Virus record (IMG/VR): IMGVR_UViG_3300034682_000088
Coordinates: 1-36,097 of that record
Direction: 5' to 3' (one strand)
DNA length: 36,097 nucleotides
Source: a virus
Made by a program: the position numbers and the translations under genes. The notes beneath the pieces are model-generated. The model ran no database searches. It was not told where the DNA came from and saw nothing but the letters and a program-made list of their open reading frames with translations. The stretch's first letter is position 1; each line of letters opens with the position of its first letter. Below are positions 1,844 through 30,683 of the stretch, piece by piece.

Positions 1844-3409
1844 ATGGCTGGAGTGTGGAAGCGTGACGGCACGGTGGCCGTCACCAATGGTAACAAGAAG
1901 GTGACCGGTACCGGGACAACCTTCGCAGACACCAAGAACGGGGTGGCCAAGGGCCACCTTTTTTGTATCACCAGTGGCACCTCGGTGGATTTCTACGAGG
2001 TGGACTACGTGGTGTCCAACACGGAGCTGTATCTGGTGCAGTCATACCGTGGCACCACTGCCACGGGCAAAGCCTACGAGGTCATTACAACCTTTTCGGA
2101 TTCCGTGCCGGAGTTCGCCCGTCGCCTTACGGCTACCCTGAGTGCCTATCAGCAGCAAAGTGATGCCTTCCAGGCGCTGCTGACGAGCACTGCCACCACT
2201 ATCGAGGTGACCGCGCCGGATGGCACCAAGCAAACGCTGATACCCTGGAAGCGTGTGACCAGCGAGGGGGAGGGCCAGGCGGCCCGCGCCAAGGTCGAAG
2301 CCGACCGGGCAAAGACCGAAGCGGATCGCGCCGCTGCGGCCGCCAATGCCACGGCCGAAGCCGGGACCGGCTCGCTGATGCGCGTGGGCGGCGCCACCAT
2401 CCTCGATGCGGAGCGCTACGCCCTGGAGCGGGCAACCGGCGGCAGACAGACCATCATTCGCGACAGCGCTGGCAACGCCAATGCTATGTTCGTGCTGCCG
2501 CGCTTCAGCTACGCCGACCTGGGCATGACTGCCGATATGGGCACTGGCGATGTGACGGCGTTCGATGTGGGCACTGGCAGCATTAAGGGCGAAATTTTTA
2601 TCGGCGCATATCTTGCGTCCGGCTCCGGCGCTGTCAGCGCGCCGCGGCAAGATCCCCGCACCTCGCTCGATCACACCGCCGCCCGCAACGCCTGTAGTGC
2701 AAAAGGCGCAGGCTGGCATCTGATGACGGCGCACGAATGGGCGGCAATCGCCCTGTGGTGCATGGCCAACGGCTACGAGCCGATTGGCAATACCAACTGG
2801 GGGCGCAGCCACGCCAAAACCTGGATGGTAGGCGATCGGGCCGACAATAGAGCGCCGGGTGATACAGCCGGCACGGGGCGAACCCAGACCGGCTCGATGG
2901 GGTCCGAGGCGACGCATACTCGCACGCTGGGCGGGATTGCGGATCTGGTCGGCAACGTCTGGGAGTGGCAGGACGGATTGCTGCTGCAAGATGGGCGCTT
3001 TAAGATTTCTGCCTACAACACCCAGGCCGAAGTTGACTGGGCGTTTGTCGATGCGTTTCTTGATGCGTCAACACCAACCGGTGGATCGGCCATCCTGTCC
3101 AACGCAGTCAACAACAGACTGGGAGCCATCGGAGACAACGCCAACGCAGGCAACTCAGCCAACGTAGAGTGGCGAGCAATGACAAAATCAGGCAGCTACG
3201 TCAGCAATCAGGCGATGAAGCGGCTGCTGCTGGAGCCGGCTGGGGCCTTGCCGCAGGGGCGCATCTATATGCGCAATTTCGGCGAGCGTCTCCCGTTTCG
3301 TGGCGGCTCTTGGGACAACGGGGCCAACGCTGGCCTGGCTGCGCTCAATCTGAACGCTTCACGCGCGCTCGCGCTCACGTTCATTGGGTTTCGCCCCGCC
3401 TTTGCCTGA
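1844..3409 (+). CDS. DGR target: tail/receptor-binding protein with C-type-lectin (FGE-like) variable domain
   Basis: 521 residues. The first 85 or so residues (VWKRDGTVAVTNGNKKVTGTGT) resemble the virion-attachment domain seen at the start of many phage tail fibers. Residues about 140-172 are an Ala/Glu/Arg coiled coil. From about 225 to the end runs a formylglycine-generating-enzyme-like C-type lectin fold with the diagnostic LVGNVWEWQDG segment and the terminal GFRPAF motif. The last 41 codons lie in the variable repeat. Compared with the template, residues 485, 489, 491, 505, 509, 510, 511 and 513 are changed and residue 482 is silently changed. By analogy with Mtd of Bordetella phage BPP-1 it would bind host receptors at the tail tip. 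That role is inferred from family and location. Confidence 0.92.
   Translation: MAGVWKRDGTVAVTNGNKKVTGTGTTFADTKNGVAKGHLFCITSGTSVDFYEVDYVVSNTELYLVQSYRGTTATGKAYEVITTFSDSVPEFARRLTATLSAYQQQSDAFQALLTSTATTIEVTAPDGTKQTLIPWKRVTSEGEGQAARAKVEADRAKTEADRAAAAANATAEAGTGSLMRVGGATILDAERYALERATGGRQTIIRDSAGNANAMFVLPRFSYADLGMTADMGTGDVTAFDVGTGSIKGEIFIGAYLASGSGAVSAPRQDPRTSLDHTAARNACSAKGAGWHLMTAHEWAAIALWCMANGYEPIGNTNWGRSHAKTWMVGDRADNRAPGDTAGTGRTQTGSMGSEATHTRTLGGIADLVGNVWEWQDGLLLQDGRFKISAYNTQAEVDWAFVDAFLDASTPTGGSAILSNAVNNRLGAIGDNANAGNSANVEWRAMTKSGSYVSNQAMKRLLLEPAGALPQGRIYMRNFGERLPFRGGSWDNGANAGLAALNLNASRALALTFIGFRPAFA
3286..3404 (+). repeat. DGR variable repeat (VR)
   Basis: 119 bp at the 3' end of the target gene align without gaps to the template repeat at 3834-3952 (offset 548). 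There are 14 mismatches, at VR 3289, 3297, 3308, 3309, 3314, 3356, 3357, 3368, 3369, 3371, 3374, 3375, 3380 and 3381. In every case the template base is A (changes to T, C or G). No mismatch falls on C, G or T. The last 22 bp (3383-3404) are identical to the template and correspond to the initiation-of-mutagenic-homing (IMH) end. The homology stops one base before the target's stop region. Confidence 0.97.
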
Positions 3410-3432
3410 GCCTTGCGCCTTGGGTTTTGTTG

Positions 3433-3450
3433 GCGCCACGGTAGTGGCGC
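3433..3450 (+). promoter_or_regulatory. DGR target-recognition hairpin/cruciform after VR
   Basis: A perfect 7-bp inverted repeat (GCGCCAC, 3433-3439, with GTGGCGC, 3444-3450) encloses the tetraloop GGTA. It lies 28 bp after the end of VR and before avd. In BPP-1 and other phage DGRs a hairpin with a GRNA tetraloop just downstream of VR is required for efficient retrohoming, and GGTA fits GRNA. There is no T run, so it is not a simple terminator. No such hairpin is seen at the same distance from the TR. Confidence 0.85.
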
Positions 3451-3469
3451 TTAATCGGTTGAGGATGCC

Positions 3470-3814
3470 ATGGATAAACAACCGCTCGTTATCGAGCAGC
3501 GGATCCGCGACATGATGCAGTATGGGCACATCGCCCTGCGCCAGTTTCCGAAGTCAGAGAAGCATGTGTTGGCGGCCGAGATCAGGACCAGCATGTTGAC
3601 GCTATTGCGCCTCGTCATTACGGCGGCGAAGCGCTATCACAAGAAGACCACGCTCACCGATCTCGATGTCGAACTGGCGGTGTTGCAAAATCAGATCAGG
3701 CTGGCCAAAGACCTGACCTATCTACCCATCAACAAATATCAGCACTGGAGCGGTCTCAATCTCGAGATCGGCAGGATGATCGGCGGCTGGCTCAAATACG
3801 AGCGAGCCGCCTAA
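3470..3814 (+). CDS. avd: Accessory variability determinant (Avd)
   Basis: 114 residues, all helical and basic, matching the size and character of Avd, the four-helix-bundle pentamer that binds the DGR reverse transcriptase and the template RNA and is needed for mutagenic retrohoming. Typical features are the N-terminal helices (LVIEQRIRDMMQYGHIALRQFPKSEK), a Leu-rich middle helix (SMLTLLRLVITAAKRYHKK) and a terminal helix with IGRMIGGWLKYERA. It starts after a GAGG Shine-Dalgarno, lies between VR and TR, and ends 20 bp before the template repeat. Position and sequence together make the call secure. Confidence 0.93.
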   Translation: MDKQPLVIEQRIRDMMQYGHIALRQFPKSEKHVLAAEIRTSMLTLLRLVITAAKRYHKKTTLTDLDVELAVLQNQIRLAKDLTYLPINKYQHWSGLNLEIGRMIGGWLKYERAA

Positions 3815-3833
3815 TCATGGGCTCCGACATCAT

Positions 3834-3952
3834 GCGACTCCCGTATCGTGGCGGCAATTGGAACAACGGGGCCAACGCTGGCCTGGCTGCGCTCAATCTG
3901 AACAATTCACGCGCGAACACGAACACGAACATTGGGTTTCGCCCCGCCTTTG
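3834..3952 (+). repeat. DGR template repeat (TR) / template RNA core
   Basis: A 119-bp copy of VR with 26 adenines, 14 of them changed in VR. Read in the VR frame it gives Asn-rich codons (AAC/AAT at the variable sites), the normal DGR design for maximal diversity. It lies between avd and the reverse transcriptase in the usual order VR-avd-TR-RT. The transcript covering about 3815-4083 (TR plus a 131-base spacer before the RT start) should be the template RNA, whose spacer normally folds to prime cDNA synthesis. The frame through TR is open into the RT gene, but there is no convincing ribosome site before it. Confidence 0.96.
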
Positions 3953-4083
3953 GCAGCAGCCAGAAGGCAACACCTCACGGGGCGTTGTCCAGTGCATTAT
4001 CAAAGGGATGTCGATGCCTCGGCTATCGCCGAAAAACTGAACAGGCGGCACCGGTGCGCCGGGCCGCCGACTTTAAGGCCCTC

Positions 4084-5103
4084 ATGTACGACCAAATCAT
4101 ATCGTTTGACAATCTGCACCAGGCTGCCCTGCGCTGCCTGTGCGGAAAACGCACCTCGCCCGCCGCCCTGCGCTACATGCAGCGCCTGGAAGAGCACCTG
4201 CACGACACCCACAATCATCTGCTGCACGACAGCTATCAGCCCGGCGGATACGAGGAGTTTTATGTTTTTGAGCCGAAACAGCGCCTGATCTCGGCACCCC
4301 GCTTCGTGGATCGAGTTGTCCACCGGGCGATCATGAATGTACTGGAGCCAGCGCTTGACCCGCGCTTTATATTCGATAGCTACGCCTGCCGCAAAGGCAA
4401 GGGGGTACATGCCGGGGCAAACAGGGCACAGCGCTGGATGCGGGCGATCAGGCAAGCTCACGGCCCACTATTCTGCCTGAAGGCGGACATCAGCAAGTAT
4501 TTCGCCAGCATCGATCACGCCCGCCTCAAGGCGATCTTGCGCCGCCACATCCACTGCGATCGCACGCTCAGGCTGCTCGATGCCATTATCGACTCGAGCC
4601 CAGGGCGGCCGGGTGTCGGGATCCCGCTCGGCAACCTGACAAGTCAGCTGTTTGCCAATCTCTATCTCAACGAGTTGGATCGCTACGCAAAGCACGATCT
4701 CGGCATCCGGTACTACATCCGCTACATGGATGATTTTGTGGTGTTGCATCACGACAAGGCGCAGCTGCAGGCGTGGCGGGCGCGCATCGAGCAGTTCCTG
4801 TGGAGTGCGCTGCGCCTGACCACTAACAGCAAGACCCAGATATTCCCGGTTGGGCCGGATAACGGCAGGGCGCTCGACTTCCTCGGCTACCGCATCTACC
4901 CCACCCACCGCCTGTTGCGCAAAAACAGCATCAAGCGCATCCGCTACAAGCTGCGCCGCTTCAAACGGGCGATAGCGGCAGGCAGGCTAACGGCAGGCGA
5001 CTGCCGACCATGCATCCAATCGTGGTGTGCGCACGCCGCGCATGCAAACACCTGGCGGCTGCGCTGCAGCCTGTTTAACATTTCGAGCGGGGCAAATAGA
5101 TGA
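4084..5103 (+). CDS. DGR reverse transcriptase
   Basis: 339 residues from the ATG at 4084, which has AAGG 5 nt upstream. An in-frame GTG at 4054 is an alternative. The open frame reaches back to 3817, but that part is the TR. RT motifs are clear: KADISKYFASID around D135 (motif A), IPLGNLTSQLFANLYLNELD (180-199) and the catalytic YMDD (214-217), then LDFLGYRI. The SQ in the LGNLTSQ motif instead of the QGxxxSP of retroviral and group II intron enzymes is typical of DGR RTs. With Avd it copies TR RNA into cDNA, misincorporating at adenines, and the cDNA replaces VR. It overlaps the next gene by ATGA. Confidence 0.95.
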   Translation: MYDQIISFDNLHQAALRCLCGKRTSPAALRYMQRLEEHLHDTHNHLLHDSYQPGGYEEFYVFEPKQRLISAPRFVDRVVHRAIMNVLEPALDPRFIFDSYACRKGKGVHAGANRAQRWMRAIRQAHGPLFCLKADISKYFASIDHARLKAILRRHIHCDRTLRLLDAIIDSSPGRPGVGIPLGNLTSQLFANLYLNELDRYAKHDLGIRYYIRYMDDFVVLHHDKAQLQAWRARIEQFLWSALRLTTNSKTQIFPVGPDNGRALDFLGYRIYPTHRLLRKNSIKRIRYKLRRFKRAIAAGRLTAGDCRPCIQSWCAHAAHANTWRLRCSLFNISSGANR

Positions 5104-5381
5104 GCTACTTATACGACGGCGAAACGCACGACAACTACGATCCGGCCTTTATGGCGGAGCTGGGCATGAGTGAGGAGGTCATAGCCTCCGTGCTCGCCCA
5201 GCACAACTATGAGCTGACAGAGGGGCAACTGGCGCGCCGCCAGCGCGCCTACGTGGCGGAGTCCGACCCCCTTTTCTTGGAGTGGCAATACGACAAGACA
5301 GCAGCGGCCGAGCAGGCATGGCGCGACAAGGTGGCGGAGATCAAGCTGCGCTACCCGGTGGCCCGTGGGGCGGAAGAGTGA
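5100..5381 (+). CDS. Small phage tail-region protein, function unknown
   Basis: 93 residues, start ATG overlapping the RT stop (ATGA). The acidic N-terminus (YDGETHDNYDPAFMAELGMSEEVI) is followed by a helical half with the pattern SDPLFLEWQYD, a Trp and IKLRYP. Small proteins of this pattern are common next to phage tail-fiber genes, and I suspect a fiber-associated or assembly role. It is not a known DGR component, but translational coupling to the RT is notable. Confidence 0.7.
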   Translation: MSYLYDGETHDNYDPAFMAELGMSEEVIASVLAQHNYELTEGQLARRQRAYVAESDPLFLEWQYDKTAAAEQAWRDKVAEIKLRYPVARGAEE

Positions 5382-5443: not shown

Positions 5444-5487
5444 GCCTTGCCTCCTGGCGCTGTCAGCGTTAGGATTTACCCATCATG

Positions 5488-5514
5488 GCCCCGCTCTCCC
5501 GAGTGGGGCTTTTT
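5488..5514 (+). terminator. Rho-independent terminator closing the DGR cassette
   Basis: A 9-bp stem (5488-5496 with 5501-5509, one G-T pair) and 4-nt loop are followed by five T. Bases 5506-5522 (17 bp) are identical to 91-107 at the terminator before the connector genes. It separates the DGR cassette from the next tail gene. Confidence 0.82.
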
Positions 5515-5538
5515 CGTTTCTGCCTCTCCGAGATCCCC

Positions 5539-7146
5539 ATGCCCGTACTCGATATCGTCACCATGCGAGGGACTATGCCGCGCGTGGAGCCACACCTCTT
5601 GTCTGATGAAGTCGCGGTGATTGCGCGTGACTGCCATTTTGACCATGGCGTTATCTCCCCGCTGGAGGATGACGCCAGTGCTGGTGTGGAATTGCCCATC
5701 GTGCCTACCACCCTTTTTCACTATGGCCAGCACTGGTTTTCCTGGAACAAGGTGGTGGAGGCCATCCGCTCCCCGATAGCTCAGGACTCGTATGGCCGGG
5801 TTTACTACACGGATGGTGAGTATCCCAAGGTGACCCATGCCCAGATAGCCACAGGCGGTAGCAACAAGCCGACGGCGTGGTATCGACTAGGCATTCCAGC
5901 CCCAGGTGTTCCGGTCGGGATTGGCACGATCACCTCACCTGTTGGTGGTGTGGATGATGACCTGACAGATGACGAAACCCGCTTCTACGTGGATACCTTC
6001 GTTACTGCGATGGGTGAGGAGGGGCCCCCGGGCCCTGTCAGTGGAAAGGTGAATATCGGGATCCCAGGGTCATCCGTCACCTTGATGCTGAGCCCACCGA
6101 CAACCCAGAACAGTAACATCACCAAGCGCCGGATATATCGGTCGGTGTCAGGTGGCGGCCTTGCCGATTACCTGTTGGTCGCCGAGCTGCCCATTGCCCA
6201 AGCATCGTTTGTCGATATCCGGGAGGATGGGGAGCTGGGCGCTGTGCTGGAGACCTACGACTACACCATGCCGCCGGATGGCATGCGCGGCTTGTGTCAA
6301 ATGGCGAATGGCATGTGTGCGGGGTTTGCTGGCAACTCCCTCTACCTGTGCGAGCCTTACCTTCCCTACGCCTGGCCGGAGAAGTACCGGCTGACCACTG
6401 AGCACGACATCGTTGCGATCGCCGCCATCGACACAACTCTGGTGATTGGGACCAAGGGATACCCCTATCTAGCACAGGGTGTAAGCCCGGCTTCTGTAAC
6501 TACTCAGAAGCTGAGCCAGCTGCCACAGGCCTGCATCAGCGGGCGCTCTATGGTCGCCATGGATGGGGTGGTGCTCTATGCCTCTCCTGATGGGCTGGTA
6601 GGCGTTGGCGCCAATGGCGGGCAAGTGGTCACCGAGCAGGTTATTACCCGCAAGCAGTGGCGCGCTATGAAGCCGGAATCCATGCGGGCATGGCACCACG
6701 AAGGCAAGTATGTCGCTCTGACGGATACCCACGCATTCATCTTTGACCCCAAGAGTGGCGACATCCGGGAGCTGACGAACCGGTGGGATGCAGCAGTATC
6801 CGATATGGAGAGCGACTCCCTCTTCGTGGCCAAGGGCCGCAGTTTGCAAGTTTGGCGCGGTGGTAGTGCCAGCAATGGCCAGTTTGTGTGGCGATCCAAA
6901 CTCTTCATGATGCCCGAGGGAACATCGTTCAGCTGCTGCAGGGTGTTGGCGGGGGATATCGCCAAGGTGGGGATCACGCTGCTCGTTGATGGTGAACCCG
7001 TGATGGAGCTGTCTCCTGGCAACCTTGTGGATGGGGCGTTCCGGCTACCGCCAGTGCGGGGCCGCCTCTGGCAGATTGAGGTCTTGGGTACCTCTGTGGT
7101 ACGCCGAATCACGCTGGCGAGCAGCATGGCGGAGATGGTGAACTGA
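5539..7146 (+). CDS. Tail protein, propeller/nozzle-like
   Basis: About 535 residues from the ATG at 5539. The open frame extends back to 5485, but that stretch is the terminator, so the later Met is preferred even though its Shine-Dalgarno is weak. The sequence is all-beta: a fibronectin-like part with ETRFYVDTFVTAMGEEGPPGP, then repeated blades such as GMCAGFAGNSLYLCEPYLPYAWP, LVIGTKGYPYLAQG and VLYASPDGLVGVG. Proteins of this build form the nozzle or tubular ring below the adaptor in short-tailed phages. The assignment is by pattern and position. The stop overlaps the next start by one base. Confidence 0.72.
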   Translation: MPVLDIVTMRGTMPRVEPHLLSDEVAVIARDCHFDHGVISPLEDDASAGVELPIVPTTLFHYGQHWFSWNKVVEAIRSPIAQDSYGRVYYTDGEYPKVTHAQIATGGSNKPTAWYRLGIPAPGVPVGIGTITSPVGGVDDDLTDDETRFYVDTFVTAMGEEGPPGPVSGKVNIGIPGSSVTLMLSPPTTQNSNITKRRIYRSVSGGGLADYLLVAELPIAQASFVDIREDGELGAVLETYDYTMPPDGMRGLCQMANGMCAGFAGNSLYLCEPYLPYAWPEKYRLTTEHDIVAIAAIDTTLVIGTKGYPYLAQGVSPASVTTQKLSQLPQACISGRSMVAMDGVVLYASPDGLVGVGANGGQVVTEQVITRKQWRAMKPESMRAWHHEGKYVALTDTHAFIFDPKSGDIRELTNRWDAAVSDMESDSLFVAKGRSLQVWRGGSASNGQFVWRSKLFMMPEGTSFSCCRVLAGDIAKVGITLLVDGEPVMELSPGNLVDGAFRLPPVRGRLWQIEVLGTSVVRRITLASSMAEMVN

Positions 7147-10100
7147 TGGCCAAGAAACCCGCATACCGTGCTGGCCGGGACCAAGCTGCAACCTCTGAAA
7201 ACGTAGAGCTGCTGACAGGGCAGCGTGGTGACCGGCTCGACAAGGCTGTTACCTTCCGGGAGTTGACCGCCTTGGGGTTGTCCACTCTGCGCCCAGGGCC
7301 TGGCGGCATTTACGTCCCCGGTAAGAACCCTGACCTTTTCCCTCCTGGCCAGATGGAGTTTCCTCATGCCCCGGTCAATGTGATCGCCAATGGCGCATTT
7401 CACACGGTCCTTGTTGAGTGGGATCCGCCGCAGTACCGGGGGCATGCTCACGCCGAGATATGGCGAGCTGAGAGCGACAACCAAGCCGATGCCACCTTGG
7501 TAGGCACTTCGTCGGCCAACCTCTTCTCTGACGCGATTGGTAAAGGTGCAAAGTTTTACTACTGGGTGCGCTTCGTCAATGGCAAGGATGACCGTGGGCC
7601 TTTCCAGGGCGTGCAGGGTGTTGCAGCAGAGACAAGCCGGGATGTGCAGGACATTCTCGACGAACTGCAGGGGAAAATAGAGGAGAGCCACCTGGCCCAG
7701 ACGCTGCTGGGGCCAATAGAGCAAGTTCCCCAACTCCAGTTGGACATTGCAATCCTGAAGCCCAAAGTCGATGAGATCGAGGTCATTCGTCCCAAGGTCG
7801 CCGCCATCGAGGACAAGATCCCCAGTATTGAGCAGGAGCTGGCTGGGCTGGATGAGCGCCAGAAGGTAGCTCAAGAGCTGCTGGATGATGCCCAGCAGCA
7901 GTTGGGGATGTCGAGCATTGAGATCGGACTGGTACAGGATCGCCTGAATGCGAAGCTCGATAAGTACAAGGGGGATTTTGACTCGTTCCGCGATGCGGTG
8001 TTTGTCGTCGATCCTGAAAACGGCAGTATCACCATGGATGCCGTCAATGCGGTGCGAGATGAGCTTCACACTTCGATTACTGAAGTGCAGCAAGATCTTG
8101 ATGCCGTTGCTGGCCAGATCAGCAGCAAGGCAGACAATGTCACCGTTGACGGCCAGGGCTCGCGGATTACAGAGGCAGAGCAGCGCATCAACGGCTTGGA
8201 CGCCAGCTTGAGCCAAACCGTCACCCGGGGGGAGTTCACAGGCGAACAGCAGCGGGTCACCCAGATCGGTCAAGAGCTTGATGCGACAAAAGGGGTGCTG
8301 GCCCAGAAGGCGACACAGCAAGAGGTTGACGAGCAGGGCGAGCGGCTGGCCAACGCGGAAAGCAAGCTGACGGTACACACCGATGAGCTGAGTTCACAGG
8401 CGCAGCGCCTTGATGGGCTGGCAGCCCAACTCACCGAAGGGGATGAAACCCTTCAGGCCAACATCACTGAGCTGGCGCGGGTCACCGCAGAAAGTGACCA
8501 GGTGGCCGCGCAACGGGTCAGTGGACTCGAAGTGAGGACAGGGGCGTCCGAGGCCAAGATCCAGGCGCTCGAAGAAATCTTCGCGGATGACGGTGGTATT
8601 ACTGCTGGCCGATTCGACGCCATCACGGCAGAACTCGAGCTGCAGCGAGGGAATGATGACGACAACGCATCTGCTGCGATCGATGGTGCCCTGGCCGTGG
8701 ATGAGCGCGACCGGGAGACCAGGAAGGCATTTGGGACCATCCGTACAGAGCAGAGGGTAATCCTGACGGAGCAGCAGGCGCAGGCTCAGCGCACAGCAGA
8801 CATGGAAGTGAAGTTTGAAGCGAAGGACGCTGCTACCCAAGCCAGGATCTCGTCGGTTGAGAAGGTGACCTCTGATGCAGACTCGGCCCTGTCGCAGCGG
8901 ATTGATAGCGTCACGGCGGAGTTCAAGGCGGCTGATGCTCAAGCGAGTGCCGACATCAAGGCGTTGGAACAATCGAGCGCATCGGCTGATGAGGCGTTGT
9001 CCTTGCGCCAGGACCAATTGGCTGCGACGTTATCAAGTGCGACGGCAGATCTTGCGGCAAACATCACCCAGGAGGAATCAGCCAGGGTCACCGCCGATGA
9101 GGCTATCTCAATGCGGGTGTCTGAGGTCGAGGCGCAGTTCGGCAGCGACCTCGAGGATGCGAAAGCGAGGGTTGCTGCCGAGGAGTCCGCTAGGGCGAAC
9201 CAAGACGAGGCGCTTGCCCAGCAGATCCGCACTGTAGATGCTGCGTTCAAGGCCGCCGATACGGCGCTGTCTGCATCTCTCGCTGAATCGAGCAAAGCCA
9301 TGGCAGATGCCGACCGAGCGCTGGGGGAGCGGATCAGCACCATCGATGTGACGGTCGGAGAGAACTCGGCCAGCATCACCGAGCTGCAGCGGGTCGTGGT
9401 GAGCAATGAGGAGTCGCTGAGCCAGCGCCAGGACAAGCTGGAATCAGAGGTAGATGTTGGCGCCGCCAGCCTGGTTGAAGGGGCTCTGGCCGGGGATGAA
9501 CGCGACCGGGAGAACCGGAAAGCTCGCGGCGTCATTCTCCAGCAGCAGAGCACGCTGGCGAATCAACAGGAGGCGCAAGCCAGGACTGTTGAGCAACTGA
9601 CCGCAGAGTTTGATGCCGAAACGGCAGATCTGAAGGCGCAGATCACCAATGAGCAGTTGGTTAGATCAACGGCAGATGAAGCCCTGGCACAGAAGACATC
9701 TGTGCTTGAAGCGCAAATCGAGGGGGTGGATCAGTCCCTCTCAGCCAGTATTGCCGAGGTGGCCAGGGTCAGCGCTGATGCTGATGCCGTCATGACCGAG
9801 AAGCTGAATCAGCAACAGTCCACAATGCAAACGGCGGATGCTGAGCTTTCTAGTCGCATCAATGAAGAGGCAACCACCCGGGCTGATGCCGTCGAGTCGC
9901 TGGCCAGTCAGATCCAGCAGGTAACGGCAAACTATCAGCAGGGAGATCAGCAACTCCAAGGCCAGATCACGGCAGAGTCAGTCGCTCGTGCCGATGCGAT
10001 GCAAGCCCTCGGAAGCCAGATTGATACGGTGTCTGCTGTTGCAGGTAGCAAGAATAAAACGTTCTTCCAAGCCACTGCCCCAGGGTCAGCGATGGGCACC

Positions 10101-14623: not shown

Positions 14624-14857
14624 TTATTTATCCTGGTTGCCGCTCATTGCGTCATCGAAGAGTTTGTTGATGACCGCCTTAATCTCTTCGTAGCTGGCTT
14701 GTTGAGGGGTGTCCCCACGATTAATCGCGTCTTGGAGTATCTGCACGATTTCCGAGTTCATTGATCGGCCATTCTTCCTCGCGCGCTCCTGAATTTTAAT
14801 TTTTAAATCATCAGGCAACCTGACTCCAAGCGGGGCGATATTGCTTGCTCCTTTCAT
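14624..14857 (-). CDS. Mnt-like ribbon-helix-helix repressor
   Basis: 77 residues. The RHH core is PLGVRLPDDLKIKI, then ARKNGRSMNSEIVQILQDAI, with the NGRSxNSE motif of the Arc/Mnt family. The C-terminal 25 residues (EEIKAVINKLFDDAMS) form a helix like the tetramerising coiled coil of P22 Mnt (82 residues). It is transcribed away from the Arc-like gene across the palindrome array 14882-14952, as mnt is from arc in P22 immI. Its likely job is to keep the antirepressor silent in the lysogen. This is inferred from family and layout. Confidence 0.9.
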   Translation of the reverse strand: MKGASNIAPLGVRLPDDLKIKIQERARKNGRSMNSEIVQILQDAINRGDTPQQASYEEIKAVINKLFDDAMSGNQDK

Positions 14858-14881
14858 GCGTGACCTCTGGCAAAAAAATAT

Positions 14882-14952
14882 CTACATAATGTAGCAATTT
14901 CTCACTTGACTGAATAGCTACATGATGTAGAGTTTGTGTCTACATGGTGTAG
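14882..14952. promoter_or_regulatory. Three palindromic operators of the RHH repressors
   Basis: The 13-bp palindrome CTACATNNTGTAG occurs three times, at 14882-14894 (centre AA), 14918-14930 (GA) and 14940-14952 (GG). The repeats start 36 and 22 bp apart in the 109-bp gap between two divergent RHH genes. A weak rightward promoter may be TTGACT (14906) with TAGAGT (14928), which overlaps the second operator. I cannot tell which repressor binds which site. Confidence 0.88.
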
Positions 14953-14966
14953 GTATTGGAGCGACG

Positions 14967-15122
14967 ATGAAGACGAGCAGCATCCCGCCATTTGGCGTTC
15001 GGATGGAAAAAGAACTGAAAGACTTGCTGGCCAAGCAGGCAAGGAAAAATGGGAGATCTCTTAACTCTGAAGTGGTCCAGATCCTGAAAGAGGCACTTAA
15101 GTATGAAGAGAAAGATGTGTGA
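14967..15122 (+). CDS. Arc-like ribbon-helix-helix repressor
   Basis: 51 residues, against 53 for P22 Arc. The ATG at 14967 has GGAG 5 nt upstream. An open frame reaches back to 14934 but would begin inside the operators. The N-terminal strand PPFGVRM, then ELKDLLAKQARKNGRSLNSEVVQILKEAL give the full RHH fold with NGRSLNSE. It is transcribed with the antirepressor, as Arc is in P22, where Arc shuts off the ant promoter after infection. Its RHH core closely resembles that of the divergent Mnt-like protein, so the two may share operators. Confidence 0.9.
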   Translation: MKTSSIPPFGVRMEKELKDLLAKQARKNGRSLNSEVVQILKEALKYEEKDV

Positions 15123-15135
15123 GGGTGTAAATGGC

Positions 15136-15167
15136 TCGGCCCCGGCGGGTGCAACCGCCAAGGCCGA
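15136..15167 (+). promoter_or_regulatory. Stem-loop between arc-like and ant genes
   Basis: Outer stem TCGGCC/GGCCGA (15136-15141 with 15162-15167), a 2x2 internal loop and an inner stem GGCGG/CCGCC (15144-15148 with 15155-15159) close a 6-nt loop. It lies in the 79-nt gap before the ant start. There is no T run. In P22 this gap carries the antisense RNA sar that controls ant translation, so a similar control site is possible. Confidence 0.6.
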
Positions 15168-15201
15168 AGGATGTAAATCAAACCAAGTTGAGGACCTGTG
15201 T

Positions 15202-15999
15202 ATGAATTTACACGAGAAGTGTAACGCTTCTGATACTGACAGCCAAGTGGCGCTGATCCCGGTTAACCAGAGCCAGGTCGGTGATGATCTGGTGCAGACC
15301 GTCAATGCTCGCGAGCTTCATGCCTTTCTGGAGGTTGGGAAGGTGTTTGCCGCCTGGATCCAAGAGCGCATAGAGCAGTTTGGCTTCGTTGAAAATCAAG
15401 ACTTTATAGTTATTTCCGAAACTGGAAAAAACCCTAAAGGTGGGCGACCTAGCAAGGAATACTTCCTCGCACTGGACATGGCCAAAGAACTGTCCATGGT
15501 TGAGCGCAACGCGAAGGGGAAGCAGGCTCGCCAATACTTTATCCAGTGCGAGCGCGTGGCAAAGTCACCGAACAACAACCCCATGCTGGTCGCTTCCACC
15601 ATGAATAGCGATCAACTGGCCCTGTTGATGGGGGAGGTTAAGCGGCGTGAAGCGGTGCAGCGTGAGCGAGACGAGGCGATCCGCACCAAGGCTTGCATCT
15701 CCAGCAGCCGAGAGGCGTCCGTAATGGCCAAGCTGGGCCATACCAAACGTGAGAACGAAGCGCTCAAAGAGCAATTGGGAGTTGGCACCAAGCACAAGAG
15801 CGTGAAGGGTGCAGGGCTGGAGCAGTTCTATATCGATGAGGGTGGCAACCGACGCCAGACCGCCAACCGGCTCAAGAAGATTGCGCTGGAGATGGGATTG
15901 GCTGGCGACATCATCGACATTGAAGACCCTAACTACGGCACGGTGAAGGCGTATCCGGTCAGTGTGATAGAGCGTTTCAAGCTGGAGGTGGCGGCATGA
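15202..15999 (+). CDS. ant: Antirepressor, AntA-type N-terminal domain
   Basis: 265 residues. ATG 15202 with GAGGA 7 nt upstream is favoured. The open frame begins at 15103, inside the Arc-like gene, and would run through the stem-loop. The AntA/AntB domain is clear at about 30-125: VNARELHAFLEVGKVFAAWI, RIEQFGFVENQDFIVI, GRPSKEYFLALDMAKELSMV and KGKQARQYFIQCER. The C-terminal half has a coiled coil and a KilA-C-like end (GAGLEQFYIDEGGNRRQTAN). Antirepressors bind the primary phage repressor and trigger lytic growth. Placement behind an Arc-like gene mirrors P22. It overlaps the next small gene by ATGA. Confidence 0.9.
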   Translation: MNLHEKCNASDTDSQVALIPVNQSQVGDDLVQTVNARELHAFLEVGKVFAAWIQERIEQFGFVENQDFIVISETGKNPKGGRPSKEYFLALDMAKELSMVERNAKGKQARQYFIQCERVAKSPNNNPMLVASTMNSDQLALLMGEVKRREAVQRERDEAIRTKACISSSREASVMAKLGHTKRENEALKEQLGVGTKHKSVKGAGLEQFYIDEGGNRRQTANRLKKIALEMGLAGDIIDIEDPNYGTVKAYPVSVIERFKLEVAA

Positions 16000-19200: not shown

Positions 19201-22200
19201 AGCGTAAGCGCTGAAACAGTTCCGGCGCCGTCTGCCACCGCGGGCGAGGCCAGCCAACTAGCACCAGCCATCGATACCGGATACCGCGGGGTGATCCCCG
19301 TCAACCAACCACAGGCAGAGGTGAGCAATGAGCCAGTTACCCCAGTACCTGCAATCAGCAGTGAAGGACAACGCGATCAGCCTGGCGCAGGCGAACCTGC
19401 TGCAGCAGGCGCTGAACCAGCCATTACCGGATTCGCCGATGGAGCTGGAGCCGGAGATCGGGGAGATCTCGCTGCGCCTGCACCTGTACCTGATGGACAG
19501 CAGCAAGATGACCAAACACTGACAGCCCCGGCCACAGATGCCGGGGTTGCTGTTTCTGAGGTGGCGCAACCAGATCCGGTAGTGCCTGCACCTGTCGCCG
19601 CACCTACGCCATGGGCAGAGGCCATTGATAACCCGGATGGAACCATCACCTTGAAAGGTGATGTGCCGCTCATCAAGCAGTGGGCCAAGGATAGCGGCGT
19701 AAAGGCGATCCCGGGTAAGGGTGGCCTGGTAGTAGCCAAGTCGTTCACTGCCAAGGTGCGAGGCCTTACTGCTCCGGCCGCCAATGAGCCTTCGGCACTG
19801 GTCGAGGCTGCTCGAGGTGGGGTAGTTCCGGAGCCAACCGAGGTAGATCTTATTGATCGCGACTTGCTGAAGGAGCATGCCGGACGCTGGAAGTACCGAT
19901 CTGCTGTTGGGGCTGGCTGGTTTACCTCCAACACCAAAGAGGGCGCTATTGACAGGGCGCGGGAGGCCTACCGGAGGGCTTTCGAGAAGGGGGACCCCGT
20001 GCCGACTCGCGAGGAGCGCTGGGAACAGTCTGAGCGCGAGTTTGCTGGGCGCATGGACAACCGCTTTGGCGGGATGACCATAAATGAGTTGGAAAAACGC
20101 CACCAGAACCTCGGCGGTACCATTGCGGATTTGCAGTTGGCTGGCCGGCACGAGATGAATGGCAATGGCGGGCGTCGCACCGGTGCCGCAGTAGCCAATG
20201 AGGGGGCTCGTCAGGCAGGCCAAGAGAAGATGGATCTCGAGCGTTATATCCAGTTGCGCCGTGATCGAGAAGAGATGGCAGGCAGTGCGCCGACTCGGAT
20301 GATAGAGGAGGCCCGCGCCGAGGTTGCGCCCGTCGATGCCAGCACCCTGGCCGATGACGAGGCGATTGCAGTGGCCGATGAGCTGGGTCTGGAGCATGGG
20401 GATAACCCGGACGATGCCCGCTGGCGGCTGGATGGCGTCAAGCCACAGGTGCTGGCCGACACGGTTGATCGGGTGCGCAATCCTAGCCAACCAGCCAAGT
20501 TTGAGCGCAGCAAGGATAATCCCAATATCGTGGCGGCCCCGCCGGTGGAAGGCGAGCAAGAAACGCGGCCCAACCGGGTGCGGATGTCGCAGCAACGGGT
20601 TGCCGCCGTGGGCGAGCAGGCTGGCTTGACGGCGGATGAGGTTGCCGGGATTGTGTCGGATTTCAGGGCTGAGTATAAAGGGGCTCGGTCACTCGATTTT
20701 ATTGTTGGTCAAACTCAAGAGGATCTTTATGGACCAGAAGGCAGCCCCGAGCAAATCGGATGGAGCGACGGGGGATACCTCCCCGGCAAGCAGCAGGTCC
20801 ATCTCTTCGCCGACAGCATCACCCGCCGAGCGGGAAGGCTCGGTCAGGATATTCACCAAGGAGATGGGGGAGAAGGAGGGGTATCTGGAGATCCCGTTCT
20901 GGATCAGTCGTTCAGACCAGCGTCACGAGATGAACAGGGTGTGGGAGGCGCAGAAAGAGCAAAAGCGGAAGTCGTCACTACCTTACGTCATGAGGTCTTG
21001 GGCCACTACGGTCTGGACACGTTTACGCCAAGCGATAAAGAGGCCCTTCTCCAGAAGCTGATCGACGCCAAGCAGGAGAAATGGATCGCCCCAGTCTGGC
21101 AGCAGATTGCGGGCGATTCTTTTTATGGCAAGCAGAGCGCACTGCACCAGGCGGAAGAGGTGTTTGCTCATCTCGCCGAACGCGCGTTGCCCTCCCGCTC
21201 TATCCAGGCCTGGAACGACATCAAGACCCTGCTCAGCCGCCTGCTGCGCAAGGTGGGGCTGGTCAAGGGTCCCATCAGGGAGCACGAGCTCGATAGCCTG
21301 ATCAAGGCCGTTGGCAAGGGCATTCGCAGCGGTGAGCGCAGCCGCCAGAATATCCGGGGTGACAAGGAGGTGATCGGCAAGCAAGCCGATGAGCCAGCCA
21401 AGGATGACAAGCCTGAACGCATAATCCGCTTCTCCAAACAGGCTATGGCGCAGGGCGAGAAGCCAGCCAAGCACCTGACCCGCAAGGAGGCGGAGCTGGT
21501 AACCAAGGAGTGGTTCAAGCAGTACCGTGGAGCCAGTGGCATTGATGTGCAGATCCACGCCACCCAGGCAGAGCTGGAGAAGGCGCTGGGGCTGGCGGCA
21601 CAAGATGGCCTGATCCGCCGCGCCGCCTTTGATGATGACAGCGGAACCCTGCATGTGGCCGCGGATACCATCGCCAATCCCAAGCGGATGCGCGAGATCC
21701 TGCGCCATGAGGTGCTGGCCCACTATGGCCTGGCCAATGTCCTGGGTGACGGGGAATACACCAAGCTGATGAGCCGCCTCATCCAGTCCCAGAAGGACCC
21801 CAGCATGAAGCCGGTGTGGGATTGGGTAAACACCCATTACGCCGATGAGGACATCGGCACCCAAGCCGAGGAGGTGGTGGCTCATCTCGCAGAATTGGAG
21901 CAGGGGGCCTGGGGCCGTGGCTGGGATCGGGTCGTGGCCTGGGTCACCCGGGCGCTGCGTGCAGTTGGTTTTGTACCGGATGGCATCACGGCTGCCGAGA
22001 CCCGCAACCTGATCGAGGCGCTTGGCAAGAAGATGAAGCGCGGCGGCCCTGACAATGGCGGCCCGGATGGTGGCCAGAAGTTCAGCCAGGAAGCCGAGCG
22101 GCCAGCCCAGAAAGGCGGTATCAAGATGAGCCAGGCCAGTACCGCAGCTGATGCGGCCATGGAGAAGCTCAACCTGGGCCCCAAGCCCGACATCATCGAC

Positions 22201-29194: not shown

Positions 29195-29535
29195 ACATCC
29201 CCCAGCATTCTGATTTCGTCGTCCGTCAGGCCAGCGGCCCGGGCCTTGTCCATCACCCGCAGGCGCTCGGCGTTGAGCGCGTCAGCGCGGCGATCTGCGT
29301 CGTTGGGCTCGATGATGCTCACCGGCGCCAGCCAACTGCCGCGCACCTTCACGGCGATCTCCTTGCTGACGTTGGCGTCGCTCCCCTGGACGCCCTTGCG
29401 TGTCGCCATGCGTGCGGCGGTGGATGCTGATCCGCAGACGTGGATCGGGTGCTGATGCCCACGCCCCTCGGTGAGGTCGGTGTTGGTGTAAACCACCCAG
29501 ACGTCCTTGGTGTCGGTTATGGTGAGGTCGGTCAT
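29191..29535 (-). CDS. Early phage protein, unknown
   Basis: 114 residues, ATGA overlaps with both neighbours. Strands at the start (LTITDTKDVWVVYTNTDLTE), a short Arg/Ala helix, then SIIEPNDADRRADALNAERL and a terminal AGLTDDEIRMLGDV helix that resembles a small DNA- or protein-binding helical hairpin. The family is not recognised. Confidence 0.62.
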   Translation of the reverse strand: MTDLTITDTKDVWVVYTNTDLTEGRGHQHPIHVCGSASTAARMATRKGVQGSDANVSKEIAVKVRGSWLAPVSIIEPNDADRRADALNAERLRVMDKARAAGLTDDEIRMLGDV

Positions 29536-30683
29536 GCGGCACCTCCGGCAATGACTTTCCGGAGACCCTGCGAGTCGGGCGTACTTATGATGCCCCTGGT
29601 CTCCATGGCTTCAACAAGCCACGCTGCGCGGTTGTATCCAATCCTGAAATTACGCTGGATTGCACTGACAGAAGCCCTGCCTGACTCCATTACGAATTCA
29701 ACGGCATCTTGATAAAGCTGGTCTTGATCTGCCGGAACTGCTTCACATGCCGCTTTCTCCTCTGCCGGGGCTTGGTAGTCCATCATGGTGCAGAGGTCGG
29801 TGATGGCCTTCGACAGCAGGATGAGGTTCGCAGCGTTGCACTGGCGCCAGTGGTGGGCGTAGTCATCGGCATCATCATCAGAGTCGTAATCCGGAATGGT
29901 GATGGCGCGCAGGCTGAAATCGCTGTTTAGCTTGAAGCTGATGGGTTCGTGCCACAGTTCCAGCTCTTCCACCTGGTAGCCAGCTTCCAGCAGGGAAACC
30001 ACATCGGATGCGCGATCCCCGTTGAGATCCATGCCCTTGAAGGTCACCATCTCTTGCGCGGTGTCGGCAGACTTGAGCTTGACGAACTGGAGCGGGGAGA
30101 AGGGGCCGAGCGCTTCCGGGCGCTCTGCACTATCGGTCAGGTAGTCTTTCAGGCGGTTGCTGATCCCCATCTTGATGTCGTCGATGTGGATGGTCTGGGT
30201 CTTGAGGGAGCCCATGCACTTCACCAGCAGGTGCATGACCACCTTGAGCGGGCGCTTGGTGGTGGTGTTGAGGTACAGCAACTCGTTGCTCTGGTCGTAC
30301 AGGGCGTGGATGAGCGTGGTTTCATATTCAGCCGTGGCGGCCATCTCAACAATCAATTGGTCCTTCATGGCCAGTTTCTCTTTGCGAGTAACCTTCTCCC
30401 GCAGACCGGAGCTGATCAGCGCATCAACGCGCTCTTTGAGCTTGCGGTTGACGATCTTGGTCGGAATGAGCTTAGTGTCTTGGCGCACGACGAATGCGTA
30501 GCCGACGCCTGGCAGGTTGGTAACAAGCTCGCCGGTCACCAGGTTGTTCTCGAACCCGGCGCAGCTGAGCTGATTTTCAGTGAGCGGAGTGAAGGAGAGC
30601 TCGGCCAGGTGTTCGCGCATTGCTGCGATGGCTGGGAGCTTGGCACTGTAGATGCTGGCGGATTTGATAACGGAATGGTTCAT
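29532..30683 (-). CDS. RdgC-like recombination protein fused to an FtsK gamma domain
   Basis: 383 residues. Residues about 1-310 follow RdgC: MREHLAELSFTPLTENQLS, a TKLIPTKIVNRKLKERVDAL segment, TRKEKLAMKDQLIVEM, and the late NAANLILLSKAITDL that matches the ILMTGELAALI end of E. coli RdgC. Residues 321-383 are an FtsK gamma winged helix: DAVEFVMESGRASVSAIQRN, FRIGYNRAAWLVEAMETRGI. RdgC forms a DNA-encircling dimer that limits RecA. FtsK gamma reads KOPS and contacts XerD. Both parts are clear by sequence. What the fusion does is unknown. AAAGGACCCAGACC precedes the ATG. Confidence 0.88.
   Translation of the reverse strand: MNHSVIKSASIYSAKLPAIAAMREHLAELSFTPLTENQLSCAGFENNLVTGELVTNLPGVGYAFVVRQDTKLIPTKIVNRKLKERVDALISSGLREKVTRKEKLAMKDQLIVEMAATAEYETTLIHALYDQSNELLYLNTTTKRPLKVVMHLLVKCMGSLKTQTIHIDDIKMGISNRLKDYLTDSAERPEALGPFSPLQFVKLKSADTAQEMVTFKGMDLNGDRASDVVSLLEAGYQVEELELWHEPISFKLNSDFSLRAITIPDYDSDDDADDYAHHWRQCNAANLILLSKAITDLCTMMDYQAPAEEKAACEAVPADQDQLYQDAVEFVMESGRASVSAIQRNFRIGYNRAAWLVEAMETRGIISTPDSQGLRKVIAGGAA

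Follow-up and report, generated by a model that had tools for sequence, protein, structure and literature searches.

A recently active diversity-generating retroelement of a temperate Aeromonas-type phage and its natural relatives

Diversity-generating retroelements (DGRs) were described in Pseudoalteromonas phages ACA1 and ACA2. Near-identical phages of this kind differ mostly in the variable repeat (VR), a small third gene comparable to the one treated below was reported, and the template repeat (TR) was described as translated, forming an N-terminal extension of the reverse transcriptase (RT) (PMC10612066). In phages, DGRs may also possess hairpins with GC-rich stems of 7-10 bp and a GRNA loop, located 4-34 bp after VR (Guo et al. 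2011; PMC3240598). The diversified protein TaqVP was found to adopt the C-type lectin fold of the formylglycine-generating enzyme (FGE) subtype (PMC6328139). Here we analyse a DGR from IMG/VR record IMGVR_UViG_3300034682_000088, a virus record and not a bacterial chromosome, whose 36,097 nt in full are referred to as the window. The phage is temperate and Aeromonas-associated. Its DGR is, almost certainly, genuine, complete, recently active and of the phage BPP-1/VHML type. It is a typical representative of an already known class, and its added interest lies in the natural comparison set that its relatives provide.

Adenine-confined copying from TR to VR

The repeats and the genes of the DGR are as follows:

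3286..3404, + strand: variable repeat (VR)
3834..3952, + strand: template repeat (TR), with 26 adenines
1844..3409, + strand: target gene for a probable tail-tip receptor-binding protein of 521 aa with diversified C-terminus (open frame, PHROG, phmmer)
3470..3814, + strand: avd, accessory variability determinant (Pfam bAvd, NCBIfam DivGenRetAVD, phrog_3206)
4084..5103, + strand: DGR reverse transcriptase of 339 aa with YMDD and GNLTSQ motifs (phrog_1423, RVT_1, 8ub7)

A previous sequence-only reading of this DNA had described a complete DGR, and the target, avd, TR and the RT frame ending at 5103 are indeed all open or intact. VR and TR align without gaps over 119 bp, and all 14 differences between them (A>T 7, A>C 4, A>G 3) lie on template adenines, which occupy 26 of the 119 positions. 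Both this count and the lack of non-adenine drift agree with what had been read earlier; the strong confinement to adenines stands as well, only that the hypergeometric chance of such a pattern is 1.6e-11 instead of the binomial 6e-10 given then. Since the template adenines are mostly found in AAC or AAT codons and 24 of the 26 occupy position 1 or 2 in the target frame, their mutation yields no stops there. No further copy of VR or TR, and no second target, was found in the 36-kb record.

Among 146 loci related to the window RT, 1806 of 1858 VR/TR differences are located at adenines, in a survey that retained only VR/TR pairs with at least 75% of differences at A. Adenines preceding C are most commonly changed to G (~70%) and most rarely to C (~10%) in these loci; in a comparison of such context-dependent A>N spectra with E. 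coli BPP-1 data, selection and strand convention are inseparable.

Natural relatives provide direct evidence that TR is copied into VR with mutation of adenines. Seven close relatives contain both repeats, namely Aeromonas phage phiARM81mr (L003, the same as L084), L085-L089 and Aeromonas caviae KAM479 (L234). The last is one of two useful A. caviae records that emerged from plasmid searches: NZ_AP026896.1 is labelled as plasmid in PLSDB, yet with 4.9 Mb it is chromosome-sized, and its DGR is intact. A KAM479 match that was 119 bp longer than expected looked like a tandem duplication of TR; this was rejected as an artefact of TR aligning to VR. TRs of the window, phiARM81mr and L087 are identical, and pairwise comparison of their VRs gives 14, 15 and 17 differences, every one of them at an adenine site. 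Over seven phages, the mean pairwise diversity of VR amounts to 0.61 at its adenine sites and 0.03 at its remaining sites; in TR it is 0.02-0.03. Moreover, non-A markers specific to individual TRs (offsets 36, 37, 80 and 99, 0-based) recur in VR of the matching phage. At the 26 four-fold degenerate non-A sites of VR, the window and phiARM81mr show no difference, compared to ~5 predicted (P ~0.002) from the 21% four-fold-site divergence of the target just upstream of VR in this pair. Such identity beside a diverged flank argues that VR was overwritten from a common template. Recent activity, which the sequence-only reading had proposed together with a comparison of VR among related phages, is thus borne out by relatives whose TRs are identical and whose VRs vary at adenine sites only; the refutation test set by that reading came out on the side of activity.

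Could the VR differences result from ordinary recombination between divergent target genes rather than from mutagenic homing? Recombination is demonstrably common around the target; for example, the IMG/VR relative L166 matches the window with 99.9% identity as far as VR and differs within it. Recombination would nevertheless be expected to introduce silent non-A differences, of which the VRs of the window, phiARM81mr and L087 have none, and the adenine-only pattern requires a template. We consider this explanation hardly credible.

Among close relatives, TR varies at 7 sites per 119 bp versus 8 in ~1020 bp of spacer and RT (Fisher P 4e-4), in a test that leaves out a recombinant-looking patch of L089 and relies on sites counted by eye after the data were seen. 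In L086 (5750-5868), the otherwise slowly evolving TR carries three private changes, all at adenines. These three events give only a hint that the template itself may have been mutagenised or patched from VR.

Two elements at and behind the VR 3' end are candidates for guiding the copy to its recipient:

3386..3404, + strand: invariant GC-rich 3' end of VR, identical to TR 3934-3952, at the position expected by analogy with BPP-1 for the initiation of mutagenic homing (IMH) site
3433..3450, + strand: putative target DNA hairpin or cruciform GCGCCAC-GGTA-GTGGCGC

In BPP-1, the IMH of VR is distinct from the IMH* of TR, although this is not a feature that defines DGRs. No difference of this kind occurs in the window or its close relatives, all of which have the final 19 bp of VR identical with those of TR. 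Because the two repeats share this end, the hairpin would be the evident feature by which recipient and donor can be told apart. It was overlooked in the sequence-only reading and is added here. With its 7-bp stem, GGTA loop and distance of 28 nt from VR, it fits the published rules for phage DGRs (PMC3240598). In the 146 related loci, each with an adenine-biased VR/TR pair, a hairpin is present within 80 nt after VR in 82 cases (75 with GRNA loop), compared to 19 after TR and 1 of 146 shuffled flanks. The phiARM81mr hairpin has a compensated stem pair and a GATA loop.

Several points weigh against a recently active DGR. As the last 19 bp of VR equal those of TR, no IMH/IMH* difference marks the recipient, and with 7 bp the stem is near the lower limit of known lengths. 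Three non-adenine differences separate VR and TR in L085, so some drift or error is present in the group. Finally, the support is computational throughout and comes from genome sequences. What this analysis backs is the anatomy of the element, the intactness of its genes, the predicted fold of the target and adenine-only copying from TR to VR in natural relatives.

Exchange and loss of the cassette

The segment 3717-5113 of the window (1.4 kb) differs from phiARM81mr in a single base. RTs of this pair show 0/160 four-fold-site and 0 amino-acid differences, whereas flanking genes differ at 8-37% of four-fold sites; the 5' part of avd, with 13% four-fold divergence, lies outside the exchanged block in this pair. 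In other close relatives, 0-2% of RT four-fold sites are different, compared to 21-34% in the downstream gene (5485-7143) where comparable. Overall, RT and TR have hardly any silent differences between phages in which this downstream neighbour differs at 21-37% of silent sites. RT four-fold sites are unconstrained, since 58% of them differ in the more distant relative phiWae15. The simplest reading is a recent horizontal exchange of avd-TR-RT among these phages, with the cassette moving as a module.

Some relatives have lost the cassette. Three of them share the junction TTGAGG/CxTGTTTAAC (the slash marks the breakpoint), located in these regions:

L166 (IMG/VR), 1834-2324: cassette-less junction region
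L173 (IMG/VR), 9190-9690: cassette-less junction region
L235 (A. caviae W3 phage-plasmid, NZ_CP097210), 19882-20372: cassette-less junction region

In all three, avd and TR are gone, as is RT but for its very end, and the target, VR, hairpin (with one base change in the L235 stem) and small open reading frame (ORF) are kept. RT was not found elsewhere in these three records. The deletion fuses the ribosome-binding region of avd to a short frame that preserves the overlap with the small ORF. The last ~10 RT codons persist at the junction in drifted form, and the VRs, compared with the TR haplotypes known, have changes at adenines plus 0-2 others. It follows that the cassette was lost after diversification; the same two observations disfavour the junction as an ancestral empty site. 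L172 (5760-6080) represents a separate partial deletion, in which the hairpin and most of the cassette are lost and an avd fragment remains; diversification at adenines is still seen in its VR, together with two changes at non-A positions. Altogether, of the target homologues for which 1.5 kb or more of downstream sequence is available, 7 are without nearby RT, and ~39 loci have one (our count; several are fragments).

Although the junction is common to L166, L173 and L235, VRs of the former two are separated from that of L235 by 15 adenine-site differences and one at a TR marker. VR was therefore probably altered after the loss, through recombination or the action of a DGR in trans. The stronger claim, that the cassette is gained and lost as a common module among Aeromonas phages and that cassette-less VRs are rewritten in trans by co-resident DGRs, appears improbable to us.

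Loss bears on the question whether the window DGR, active recently, is now silent with its VR fixed. Present activity is not demonstrable from a single genome; relatives without DGR show that loss and freezing occur, and a prophage with frameshifted RT is known from the ACA work (PMC10612066). On the other hand, avd, TR, spacer, RT and hairpin of the window are all intact, its RT has neither four-fold-site nor amino-acid differences from phiARM81mr, and VR is without non-adenine drift. Silencing is thus a minor possibility, though one to be reckoned with.

Taken together, these phages represent a very clean natural case of DGR activity, with a template nearly frozen across phages and a target varying at template A only. 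They show unusually clearly a DGR at work, traded between phages and sometimes lost. The set is also tractable, as it comprises a published temperate phage, an A. caviae genome with the cassette and, to serve as controls, alleles that lack the cassette by nature. Studies on it could address the pay-off of DGRs, their rate of loss and trans action between prophages.

Target protein, RT and neighbouring genes

Two domains are predicted in the target protein:

1844..2119, + strand: N-terminal tail-attachment-like domain, approximately residues 1-92 (AlphaFold model and VIA-align)
2384..3406, + strand: C-terminal FGE-type C-type-lectin-fold domain with the variable residues, approximately residues 181-521 (model, structural match)

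The target matches tail-fibre PHROGs at its N-terminus and phrog_2889 at its C-terminus, and phmmer relates it to TaqVP (5vf4, E 1.3e-47). An AlphaFold model built from a 35-sequence alignment has a mean predicted local distance difference test score (pLDDT) of 83, with values mostly 85-97 in the C-terminal domain. This domain superimposes on TaqVP with Z 49 and root-mean-square deviation 1.6 over 334 residues; next structural matches are TvpA, Mtd and formylglycine-generating enzymes (Z 12-14). The lectin/FGE-like target of the sequence-only reading is therefore upheld, with a solved DGR protein as the closest structure. The end of VR coincides with the final codons of the gene, on the C-type lectin fold scaffold. 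The first ~90 residues resemble modules of the lambda tail-tip, the JBD30 baseplate and the LKA1 tailspike (VIA-align, Z 8-9), in accord with the phage tail setting assumed before; these moderate Z values are only suggestive of a role in tail attachment. By analogy with Mtd of BPP-1 and with the ACA phages, receptor range is likely diversified through this protein.

A non-receptor role of the diversified target, such as enzymatic activity of the FGE kind or a different function at the surface, was also considered. The fold is common to formylglycine-generating enzymes, PvdO and EgtB, and enzymatic activity was raised as a possibility by the TaqVP authors (PMC6328139). Binding is favoured, however, by diversification of the equivalent surface and by the tail-attachment-like N-terminus; further, the divergent VR of ACA phages lies in the anti-receptor and was linked by the authors to absent cross-infection (PMC10612066). 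We regard a non-receptor role as very improbable.

The biochemical steps, as well as the tail location and receptor function of the target, are what we infer for this DGR. TR would be transcribed within an avd-TR-RT RNA, which RT together with Avd would copy to cDNA while misreading adenines. Guided by the GC-rich 3' end common to VR and TR and by the downstream hairpin unique to VR, this cDNA would take the place of VR in the 3'-terminal part of the target gene. As a result, up to ~12 residues of a tail-linked protein with C-type lectin fold could change, probably altering host-receptor binding.

Both proteins of the cassette are recognized by comparison. Avd is matched by Pfam bAvd (E 1.8e-39) and NCBIfam DivGenRetAVD (E 3.3e-32), both above curated cut-offs; a sequence search of PDB yields no match for it, whereas profile libraries do. 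The best solved relative of RT is 8ub7 (deposited as "Reverse transcriptase"; E 2.3e-59), which we take to be the BPP-1 DGR complex. Group II intron RT is the next family (E 5.5e-19), 40 orders of magnitude behind, and the GxxxSQ and YMDD motifs are present; best match and motifs together point to a DGR-type RT.

Remaining parts of the block are:

3953..4083, + strand: TR-RT spacer of 131 nt, near-invariant in close relatives
5100..5381, + strand: small ORF of 93 aa overlapping the RT stop (phrog_5714), which travels with the target

The frame that contains RT is open from 3817 and ends at 5103, but RT proper very probably begins at ATG 4084, preceded by AAGG. Translation of TR as a part of RT (ORF 3817-5103) was rejected: a one-base insertion in L086 breaks the long frame and leaves the RT frame unharmed, and a stop separates TR from RT in 107 of 137 related loci. 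A convincing ribosome-binding site was not seen for the long ORF from 3817, and its read-through of TR appears incidental. Apart from the inserted base of L086, the spacer changes among close relatives only by two base substitutions in L088. By analogy with BPP-1, it would fold and prime the synthesis of cDNA (PMC12875486). No Rfam-listed RNA was found. The small ORF is retained beside the target even in relatives that lack avd-TR-RT.

The DGR block is preceded by a gene for SU10-type head-tail adaptor and followed by genes for an internal virion protein and a tail-tip protein. Elsewhere in the window (14624-15999), a pair of oppositely oriented genes for Arc-type repressors adjoins an AntA-type antirepressor; they lie inside the structural gene region, directly ahead of a 2863-aa LPD38 polyvalent protein. 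A fusion of an RdgC-like protein with an FtsK gamma domain is encoded at 29532-30683.

Comparison with known systems

Aeromonas phage phiARM81mr (KT898134) has the same target-avd-TR-RT-small ORF block as the window, with RT protein 100% identical, TR identical and a hairpin present; its VR is different at 17 adenine sites. The deposited annotation omits the DGR and lists a "retron-type RNA-directed DNA polymerase" and a "23S rRNA-intervening sequence protein".

Pseudoalteromonas ACA1 and ACA2 and Vibrio VHML and VP585 contain antireceptor, avd, TR, RT and a small third gene in the window's order. Their RTs are 50-57% identical to that of the window; the ACA phages are P2-like. Translation of TR into RT in the ACA style is unsupported for the window DGR.

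Bordetella BPP-1 (mtd-avd-TR-brt) resembles the window in mechanism, gene content, GRNA-loop hairpin and a target of the FGE-subtype C-type lectin fold, with brt ~40% identical to the window RT. It has a distinct IMH*, in contrast to the identical TR and VR ends of the window, and the window target is in detail TaqVP-like, not Mtd-like as in BPP-1. Closest to the C-terminal domain of this target among solved structures is TaqVP of a Thermus aquaticus prophage (5VF4; PMC6328139), with VR in the same position. TaqVP consists of a single domain, whereas the window target has an additional N-terminal, tail-linked region of ~180 residues.

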